Part shown: positions 35,434 to 37,648 of the stretch, in pieces
How positions within the stretch are numbered: position 1 is the stretch's first letter
Layout: every line of letters starts with the position of its first letter
Assembly: GCF_004944975.1 (NCBI RefSeq)
Contig: NZ_SPQG01000002.1
Span: 194,271 to 258,270 of the forward strand
Source: Halorhabdus amylolytica
Lineage (GTDB): Archaea > Halobacteriota > Halobacteria > Halobacteriales > Haloarculaceae
Length of the DNA: 64,000 bases
Direction of reading: 5' to 3'
Made by a program: the position numbers and the translations under genes
Notes under the pieces: generated by a model
Told to the model about the DNA's origin: nothing
The model's input: only the letters and a program-made list of their open reading frames with translations
Database searches by the model: none

Positions 35434-35571
35434 GTGGTCGAAGTCTCCAACGTCGACATCGGATCGCGTGGTGACATCAACGAGAACCCATAAGGCTGGT
35501 ATCTCCGGGAGAAAGCCTGGGACGTCTTCGAGGGGATCCGCACGGTCGCCGAGACGAACGATCAGAACTGT
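35434..35571 (+). pseudogene. Decayed coding remnant
   Basis: A plus-strand frame reads VVEVSNVDIGSRGDINENP, then an in-frame TAA (35491-35493), then GWYLREKAWDVFEGIRTV and AETNDQN. Its codons keep the strong third-position GC of real haloarchaeal genes and the peptide is well balanced. No start codon in a sensible place and no complete domain are present. I read it as a fragment of a dead gene, family unknown, in an accessory spot between dsbB and a TnpB element. Confidence 0.4.
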
Positions 35572-35732
35572 TCAGCTTCCGTTCGGTCCATGTACGCTGA
35601 GACGACCGGCCGACGGTGCCAGTAGTTCGTCGAGACGGCGCCGGCCAGGGTGACGTAGAACGCGGTCAGGCTGTCGGCCCCGGTCCGGAGGAACCGAAAG
35701 CCAGGTTCGGGTCCCGAGAACTGCGTGATCAT
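35562..35732 (-). pseudogene. Possible 3' fragment of a gene split by the TnpB element
   Basis: A 56-codon frame, ATG at 35732, encodes MITQFSGPEPGFRFLRTGAD followed by SLTAFYVTLAGAVSTNYWHRR and a charged tail. Third-position GC and composition look genuine. The frame stays open upstream to the left hairpin of the TnpB element. The truncated DUF6602-like gene on the far side (37112-37648) reads in the same direction and lacks its end, so this may be that gene's severed C-terminus. It could instead be an independent small protein. Confidence 0.5.
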
Positions 35733-35750
35733 AGCGGAACAGCGCGGAAA

Positions 35751-35770
35751 CCCACCCGTTCACGGGTGGG
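35751..35770 (+). repeat. Left-end hairpin of the TnpB element
   Basis: A perfect inverted repeat, CCCACCCG / CGGGTGGG, with a TTCA loop lies about 90 bases upstream of tnpB. It is probably the structure recognised at the left end during single-strand transposition. Confidence 0.75.
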
Positions 35771-35859
35771 AGCAAGCGCGTACGCTTTGTGCAACAATCC
35801 ACCGACTACGACAGGCCGACTCCCCAATATATTTGAACCACCAAGTATACATATGATGT

Positions 35860-37104
35860 ATGGAGAAGCGGCGGACTGTCCCGGTCAAACTCGACGTGGA
35901 CAGTGACGACGCCGCACTCCTCGAAGACACCGTAGACGAGTTCCTATGGGCGGCTAACTACGTGACGCGCCACGCCTTCTCAGGTGAGTACGTCACCACC
36001 AGCAAGACGACGCTTCACGAGGAAACCTACGAGGACGTGCGTGATGAAACAGCATTACATAGCAACCACGTCCAAGCCGCCCGAAACAAGGCTGCCGACG
36101 CTTGCAAGAGCGTTGTCGAAAAATGGAAACAGGGGAAGAAGGCGTCGATGCCCCACTTCACCAGCCCGCACCTCGTCTACGACCACCGTACCACCACCTT
36201 CCACGACGAGTACGTGTCGTTAGCAACGGTTGACGGTCGCATTGAAGCCGACTACGTGCTCCCTGACGACGACCGATATACGCCCCACGCGGAGTACCTC
36301 TTTTCAGACGAGTACGAAACCACGGGAGCCGAACTGCACTACACGAACGGCAACTGGATGCTTCACATCCACACAAAGACGGACGTGGAGCCTGACACGT
36401 CGGCACAGGATGCCACCGAGAACAGCACAGTTCTCGGGGTAGACCTCGGCGTGAACAATCTTGCAGTTGCCTCGACTGGCACGTTCTGGACTGGTGATGA
36501 GTTCGACCACTGGCGACGAGAATACGAGAAACGCCGTGGTGACCTCCAAGAGTGTGGCACGCGGTGGGCACACGATAATATCCAGTCGATCGGACGGAAA
36601 GAGGAAGGCCGATTCAAGATAACGCTTCACCGTATCTCGAACGATTTGGTGGCTGAAGCCCGTGAGTACGGGTGTTCAGTGATAGCGTTTGAAGACCTGA
36701 CTGACATTCGCGAGCGTACCGGCGCGTCGTGGGGCCACAAGTGGGCGTTCAACCGCCTCTACGAGTACGTCGAGTACAAAGCCGCAGAGTACAGTATCGA
36801 CGTTGAACAGGTTGACCCGGAGAACACCTCTCGGCGGTGTTCACACTGTGGCTTCACGCATCCGGACAACCGCGAGGGCGAGGACTTCGAGTGTCTGAAA
36901 TGCGGCTACGAGAACCACGCTGACTACAACGCTGCAAAGAACATCGGATTGCGGTATCTCCGCCGGAACCAAACTGGAGACGGCGGAGGGGCATCCGTAG
37001 GCATTGCCCTGAACAGCGGGATGTTGAACGCGAACGGAGAGTATGAGCCTCCTGCCGAGAATTCGGCCAGAGCGGGAGTCCACGCTGAAAGCCCACGGCT
37101 TTAG
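35860..37104 (+). CDS. tnpB: TnpB RNA-guided endonuclease (IS1341 family)
   Basis: The 414-residue protein has the RuvC-like active site intact: D195 in GVDLGVNN, E278 in AFEDL and D355 in [12 protein letters not shown]. The zinc ribbon CSHCG...CLKCG lies between E278 and D355. TnpB proteins are guided by an RNA made from the 3' end of the element and cut DNA beside a short target motif. The ATATATTT box 27-33 bases before the ATG fits leaderless expression. Full length and intact catalytic residues suggest an active nuclease. Confidence 0.93.
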
Positions 37105-37111
37105 CCGTGGG
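37092..37111 (+). repeat. Right-end hairpin and probable guide-RNA scaffold end
   Basis: CCCACGGC / GCCGTGGG with a TTTA loop overlaps the last codons of tnpB. In related elements the guide RNA spans the tnpB 3' end and right end, with guide sequence just beyond. Here that guide would start at about 37115, inside the interrupted gene. Confidence 0.7.
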
Positions 37112-37648
37112 TTAGCTTACCACGTATTCGTCGAGGACACAGATCAGATCCACACACCCCTCCAGGCTGGTCCGGTTGGCGTAGTACCGCAGGACACTGT
37201 CTCTGAAGGTCTCCGGGTCAGGTCCTTCGAAGGCAAAAACTGTCGAGAAGAGCTGTTCCTGTCGTTCGACTTCGTCACCGACAGGTATCCGATCCACGTT
37301 GAGGCGTTTGATGGAATCGACCTTACTGAGGGCGTGATCGACTTCCCCGAAAAGGTCTGGTTTCACGTCCACGTGGGCGTGGACGCCCGCACTGAGGTAC
37401 CGAGACCGACCGCTGTCCGAAAGTACCGGCAAGTGTGGATCGTACAGCACTGCACCCACACGATTGCTGGACTCGCCGTTCGCGTCGACGATCTCACCGC
37501 CGACGGTGACGTACTCCTCCGGATAGGTCTCTGTGAGGAACCGCTCTACGAAGGCGTTACGGGCGTCGGGCTCGCGGTCGAACCCGCCGTCAGCGGCCCC
37601 GGCGAGCTTCTCCGACAGATGCCGAAAGTACTCGTCGAACGGTGCCAT
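37112..37648 (-). pseudogene. DUF6602-like gene truncated by the TnpB element
   Basis: The frame encodes 178 residues starting MAPFDEYFRHLSEKLAG, with EEYVTVGGEIVDANGESSNRVGAVLYDP resembling the nuclease-like core of DUF6602 proteins (G-E-I-D...S...YD). Its final codons and TAA stop lie in the right end of the TnpB element, so the natural C-terminus is lost. An intact TTTTTATC promoter box lies 22-29 bases before the ATG at 37648. The missing end may survive at 35562-35732. The family assignment is from memory of the motif and is tentative. Confidence 0.6.

Follow-up and report, generated by a model that had tools for sequence, protein, structure and literature searches.

The window, as we call the whole stretch of 64,000 nucleotides that was analysed, lies on a 434-kb contig (C12) of a Halorhabdus genome of 3.46 Mb in 26 contigs (G000). 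It contains a DUF6602 gene in two pieces on the minus strand and a TnpB element on the plus strand between them. The following features were recognised, with positions counted in the window.

34956–35414, plus strand: dsbB-like gene, the neighbour on the other side (PF02600; in 5 of the 7 genus genomes)
35458–35568, plus strand: relic of an aldo/keto reductase gene, residues 237–273 of 326, with one in-frame TAA (57% identity)
35562–35732, minus strand: C-terminal part of the DUF6602/NucC-like gene, 56 codons and stop, beyond the element (66% identity; shuffle control)
35729–35732, plus strand: TCAT, motif of the insertion site and presumed TAM, adjoining the left end on its 5′ side (TCAT in 18 of 30 loci, those having the TAGCTTAC right end)
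35733–37120, plus strand: complete TnpB-only IS200/IS605-type element of 1388 bp, beginning AGCGG and ending TAGCTTAC, without target duplication (copies elsewhere; uninterrupted sister gene)
35751–35770, plus strand: left-end hairpin CCCACCCGTTCACGGGTGGG
35860–37104, plus strand: tnpB, 414 aa, with RuvC D/E/D motifs and two CxxC pairs (profile matches and motifs)
36981–37120, plus strand: predicted scaffold of the omega-RNA (reRNA), which overlaps tnpB at its end (consensus fold)
37092–37111, plus strand: right-end hairpin CCCACGGCTTTAGCCGTGGG (changes on both sides at three of eight pairs in a 17-copy alignment)
37112–37120, minus strand: end of the truncated product, two element-derived codons and TAA
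37121–37136, plus strand: predicted guide CACGTATTCGTCGAGG, DUF6602 sequence, placed by analogy with the ISDra2 reRNA (PMC8612924)
37121–37648, minus strand: N-terminal part of the interrupted DUF6602/NucC-like gene, 176 codons (PF20247; 64% identity to the intact sister protein)
37670–37678, minus strand: TATA-like box TTTTTATCA upstream of the DUF6602 start
37707–38708, minus strand: nth, endonuclease III family, the upstream neighbour (PF00730; same neighbourhood in seven genus genomes)

The split gene and its intact relatives

The frame of the interrupted gene opens with ATG at 37648 and runs through 176 host codons (37648–37121) and two codons of the element to TAA at 37114–37112, which gives a product of 178 aa. 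The sequence and the list of open reading frames agree here with the preliminary description, which had placed the stop in the right end of the element after codon 176. The truncated frame matched PF20247 (DUF6602) with 43.7 bits, above the cut-off of 27. The promoter box named in that description also has counterparts, since TTTTTATCA at 37678–37670 corresponds to TTTTTTATCA and TTTTTTATTA upstream of the two intact genes (loci L010 and L011).

Two of the six other genus genomes, G069 and G070, carry uninterrupted orthologues of 234 aa at this locus. In both, the gene lies directly downstream of nth, between nth and an aldo/keto reductase gene. The preliminary description had proposed that a TnpB element splits the gene, had predicted an intact homologue of about 235 residues, and had named full-length homologues with an unlike C-terminus as the finding that would count against it. 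The C-termini match. The 56-codon frame (35732–35562) aligns with residues 179–234 of the intact G069 protein at 66% identity; its local alignment score with the sister C-terminus is 202, whereas 500 shuffles averaged 25 and did not exceed 49. It is thus the missing C-terminus, as had been supposed.

When the flanks are joined without the element, they form a continuous frame of 232 codons, in which 151/232 and 147/232 residues are identical to those of the two sisters. On the gene strand, the junction reads GAATACGTG/ATGATCACG in the window and GAGTACGTGATGCTCACC in G070. The sister genes read straight through this point, and no target duplication is present. The rejoined frame had thus been foreseen correctly, whereas its wording, LDEYVV-MITQFSG, was one codon off. 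The element closes with TTAC at 37120, so the second V is element-derived and the protein junction is LDEYV/MITQFSG, with a Met that is internal and not a start.

A search of 146 family genomes with the N-terminal piece gave four matches, all within the genus: the window's own genome, G069 and G070 (63–64% identity) and G073 (38%). Between nth and the reductase gene, the DUF6602 gene is present in G069 and G070, split in G000, and absent from G068, G071, G072 and G073. Across the class, PF20247 matched in 14 of 391 genomes, G000 counted in, with 13 above the cut-off. The intact gene was found at one locus, from Halorhabdus salina, in a collection of genome contigs, and viral contigs scanned for relatives of the DUF6602 protein gave no match. 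The term DUF6602 occurred in no paper found by a literature search; the family could be studied under another name. For profile comparisons, a five-sequence haloarchaeal alignment was made from G069, G070, G073, G305 and G347. The divergent sequences of G418, G351, G080, G037, G194 and G343 were left out, and those of G297 and G115 were also not included.

Ends, predicted guide and proposed mobilisation of the TnpB element

A family-wide DNA search with the element gave matches in 130 of 146 genomes, many of them partial, and two candidate regions were scored per genome. Ends were compared in 30 oriented loci (L026–L055). In 18 of these, TCAT stands before the left end and TAGCTTAC (TTAC) closes the right end, while the outer flanks differ. 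L027 and L028 share one site, and the 18 copies therefore represent 17 distinct sites. This rule fixes the element in the window at 35733–37120. The stem of the left-end hairpin varies among the 18 copies, with pairing mostly kept as judged by eye. Ten loci form a second group, with TTAT before the left end and TAGCTCAA (TCAA) at the right; in the other two (L030 and L032), TCAT is present and the right end is not recognisable. Left motif and right end are paired by subgroup (TCAT/TTAC and TTAT/TCAA), as if both had changed together.

No identical copy was found in the two regions scored per genome or in plasmids, and the best full-length relatives are 88% identical. Among 72,556 plasmid records, 17 match the element and nine cover at least 80% of it. 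The best of these nine has 87.9% identity, so there is no near-identical donor in that plasmid collection. Phage records searched with the element gave no match. The own genome holds 17 matches to the family, of which the copy in the window is the only one of full length; the others are partial or diverged (65–90% identical), except for one exact match of 25 bp. One of them, on contig C8 (L003), is a 420-bp left-end piece, 85% identical and preceded by TCAT, a remnant of an older insertion. At a locus in another genus (L031), the first seven bases of the right flank, CACGTAT, are the same as in the predicted guide of the window, possibly by chance.

The TnpB protein contains the RuvC motifs GVDLG, AFEDL and HADYNA and two CxxC pairs (zinc ribbon). 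It scored 166.8 bits with NF040570 (guided_TnpB; cut-off 100) and exceeded the cut-off of PF07282, and its match to PF01385 (OrfB_IS605) was below the cut-off (25.5 against 30.5 bits). PDB chains of Cas12f and TnpB can be aligned with it as well. With the TnpB of ISDra2 it shares the RuvC and zinc-ribbon motifs and a guide expected from the right flank (PMC8612924). ISDra2, in contrast, has tnpA and uses TTGAT. The last 140 nt of the element gave, in 17 copies, a consensus fold of 39 pairs, nine with changes on both sides, to which covariation contributes little (−2.41 of −56.09 kcal/mol). A search of Rfam gave no match at the gathering score; a loose cut-off gave one sub-threshold match, which we took as chance.

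The ISDra2 element is cut out by its TnpA as a single-stranded circle, which the enzyme then inserts 3′ of a fixed motif. Its TnpB works with an RNA from the right end, in which the final ~16 nt are flank sequence, and cleavage of the emptied site has been proposed to bring the element back (PMC8612924). By analogy, a TnpA supplied in trans would have inserted the present element in single-stranded circular form (peel and paste), and the guide of its omega-RNA would now be the ~16 nt of DUF6602 sequence that adjoin the right end. TnpB would then cut TCAT plus guide in an emptied allele, which would favour restoration of the element. TAM plus guide, with up to three mismatches, occurs at 10 places in six of the seven genus genomes, none of them perfect. 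Two are in G000: the occupied site (TTAC, two mismatches) and another place (CCAT and one guide mismatch). The uninterrupted G070 gene has GCAT for TCAT and two guide mismatches, and restoration could therefore apply only to conspecific empty alleles. The remaining seven places have three mismatches each.

There is no tnpA within the element. Matches to Y1_Tnp in the genome are confined to contigs C5 and C25, with none on C12. They comprise one full-length Y1 transposase, which adjoins a different tnpB, and one partial, and neither locus has DNA similarity to the window element. A TnpA with matching ends was thus not found in the genome, which counts against our explanation. The genus has 12 Y1_Tnp matches; ten of these loci were scanned, and none has a matching right end nearby. 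Two of them (L068 and L073) have a stretch of 31 bp in common with the element.

The element resembles the TnpB-only (IS1341-type) IS200/IS605 elements of haloarchaea and Sulfolobus islandicus: tnpB stands alone in it, hairpins lie close to its two ends, it was inserted 3′ of a short fixed motif with no duplication of the target, and an omega-RNA is predicted at its 3′ end. The solo tnpB copies of S. islandicus are described with a TTTAT motif (PMC10640517), whereas the subgroup of the window has TCAT and TTAC, its sister subgroup has TTAT and TCAA, and no cognate TnpA was found here.

We conclude, with a probability of about 0.93, that a TnpB-only IS200/IS605-type element inserted in plus orientation, 3′ of TCAT, and cut a NucC-like DUF6602 gene after codon 176, between nth and the aldo/keto reductase gene. 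It appears very improbable that the insertion was selected, that is, that TnpB and its guide were retained as a means to silence the NucC-like gene or keep it out, for instance by cleaving intact alleles that come in. The guide is, by its predicted position, DUF6602 sequence, the TnpB motifs are present, and the site is empty of the gene in G068, the closest of three relatives by substitution rates. However, the flank serves as guide wherever a TnpB element lands, so a DUF6602 guide is expected anyway; moreover, the G070 allele departs from both motif and guide, and the gene had probably degenerated already. We give even less credence to an assembly chimera, in which repeat-mediated misassembly placed the element in the gene. 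Such an error could be suspected in a 26-contig assembly and an element of a repeated family, but was rejected, since the element is the sole full-length copy in the genome, lies inside a 434-kb contig and has junctions that follow the TCAT/TTAC pattern seen in independent copies. The least tenable reading takes the 178-aa frame as a whole DUF6602 gene that is naturally short, and the 56-codon one as a chance product of GC-rich DNA. In its favour, the two frames are open and the window is rich in chance frames of at least 50 codons (92 listed over 13 kb). It was rejected because the 56-codon frame resembles the C-terminus of the intact orthologues far more than shuffles do and the sister genes continue through the junction.

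Ancestry and catalytic site of the host gene

NucC is a nuclease activated by cA3. It acts as an effector nuclease of CBASS and of some type III CRISPR systems (PMC8682760). The PADLOC NucC model PDLC01051 matched the G069 and G070 proteins and the window piece with E-values of 1.3e-9 to 7.6e-9, and those of G073, G305 and G347 with 4.4e-19, 7.5e-19 and 2.8e-20, respectively. The match of the G069 protein alone to NucC of the PDB was weak (E 0.0021). The five-sequence profile matched Serratia NucC at E 5.4e-13, and the NucC chains matched in the PDB were 7zgv, 6uxf, 6q1h and 6p7o. Comparison by hhalign with five bacterial DUF6602 proteins from plasmids gave 98.1%. Three of the five plasmid genes lie within three genes of an annotated CBASS oligonucleotide cyclase; of the other two, one is beside a nucleotidyltransferase gene and one beside ThiF and Mov34 genes. 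Judged by these profile comparisons, the host gene is a NucC homologue, and we call it NucC-like by ancestry. It shares with NucC the PD-(D/E)XK domain and, by alignment, the domain order, and plasmid relatives in CBASS clusters are annotated as DUF6602. The 178-aa product would retain the part aligned with the nuclease domain of NucC, without the C-terminal segment. Another DUF6602 gene, on the small mobilizable plasmid pA2503 of Acinetobacter baumannii (L114), lies between Abi-family and SEC-C genes; the displayed stretch has no annotated cyclase, and this may be a further setting of the NucC-like kind.

All five bacterial NucC-like rows have the catalytic residues D73, E104 and K106. Chain 6p7p has N at the Asp position where 6p7o has D, as expected of a catalytic mutant, presumably D73N. 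In the Halorhabdus trio, these positions are G/D/K in the window, G/D/K in G070 and E/D/K in G069. D/E/K is kept in the nine remaining full-length rows, whereas the trio lacks this NucC triad. Among the rows that keep it are the haloarchaeal proteins of G073, G305 and G347, which are 38–50% identical to the G069 protein and alignable over their full length. R53 and T225 (L117 numbering) are also invariant in the five bacterial proteins, and they correspond to R53 and T226 of NucC, which we take to be cA3-contact positions. Other residues occur there in the haloarchaeal rows and the A. baumannii row; the C-terminal part of this alignment is weak (hhalign stops before it).

The search for cyclases covered the Cas10 palm and SMODS families. 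The Cas10 palm (PF22335) was found in none of the seven genus genomes, and SMODS (PF18144) exceeded the cut-off in none of them, with one match below the cut-off in G000. The neighbours of the window gene are nth and the aldo/keto reductase gene, neither of them a CBASS cyclase or a type III CRISPR partner. Among the neighbours of the haloarchaeal relatives G305, G347 and G073 (ten examined by Pfam, eight by PADLOC), no CBASS or CRISPR protein was found; one is an HNH endonuclease matching ZorE models. The haloarchaeal NucC-like proteins of loci L079, L080 and L012 have catalytic D/E/K, other residues at R53/T226, and no CBASS or CRISPR gene among the few neighbours examined.

Judged by the alignment, which puts G and D at the positions of D73 and E104, canonical nuclease activity of the window copy was probably weak or absent even before the insertion. 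The altered catalytic Asp, the differing presumed cA3-contact positions and the lack of Cas10-palm and SMODS matches over the cut-off together suggest that the nuclease was probably impaired, or differently used, by that time. The Glu of G069 at the Asp position could still bind metal. AlphaFold2, run on the single sequence of the intact sister, gave a model too poor for use (mean pLDDT 35.1). We also considered that an active CBASS effector had been lost, and rejected this in view of the altered site and of the search for Cas10-palm and SMODS cyclases, which detected none over the cut-off. The earlier view of the gene as a defence-type nuclease holds for its ancestry. The catalytic Asp is Gly here and in one intact sister. 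This, and the absence of the gene from the interval in four of the seven genus genomes, weakens the suggestion that its loss could matter.

Constraint, decay and meaning

Between G069 and G070, dN/dS was 0.13 for the N-terminal and 0.16 for the C-terminal part of the gene, with controls of 0.21 (nth), 0.17 (dsbB) and 0.02 (a KH/beta-lactamase gene). These values fit poorly with a simply dead gene and suggest that the intact sister genes are under constraint despite the altered site. For the split halves against the sisters, dN/dS was 0.20–0.21 (N-terminal) and 0.22–0.36 (C-terminal), at a dS of 0.77–1.24, which is near saturation. In the same comparison, nth (0.16–0.20) and dsbB (0.20–0.30) were close to the halves and the KH/beta-lactamase gene was lower (0.08), so decay after the insertion is not demonstrable from these ratios.

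The locus itself is decaying. The reductase gene is of full length at the locus in all six genus relatives, and the window retains about 110 bp of it, with a stop. The DNA of this relic is 75–82% identical over 92–94 bp to that of the six relatives; the nearest two reductase paralogues at other places in the genome show 79% and 76–87% identity. What remains of the relic's end and the region around the stop of the DUF6602 C-terminal piece overlap, and deletions must therefore have occurred on both sides.

The insertion is real, complete and ordinary, and it struck an accessory gene. It provides a clean natural example that fixes the ends, the TCAT motif and the predicted guide of a haloarchaeal TnpB subgroup, and this makes the TAM of the subgroup directly testable. 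The point of interest is the host gene. As a doubtful but wider idea, a NucC-derived family may have become uncoupled from cyclic trinucleotide signalling in haloarchaea; in one Halorhabdus clade, it may persist as a conserved pseudonuclease, held by purifying selection in a new non-catalytic role (e.g., binding of DNA or a partner, or holding a nuclease in check), and the TnpB element would have put an end to that role in this strain. The gene points to a haloarchaeal branch of NucC, with no cyclase partner detected here, and to one clade within it in which the catalytic site is altered.
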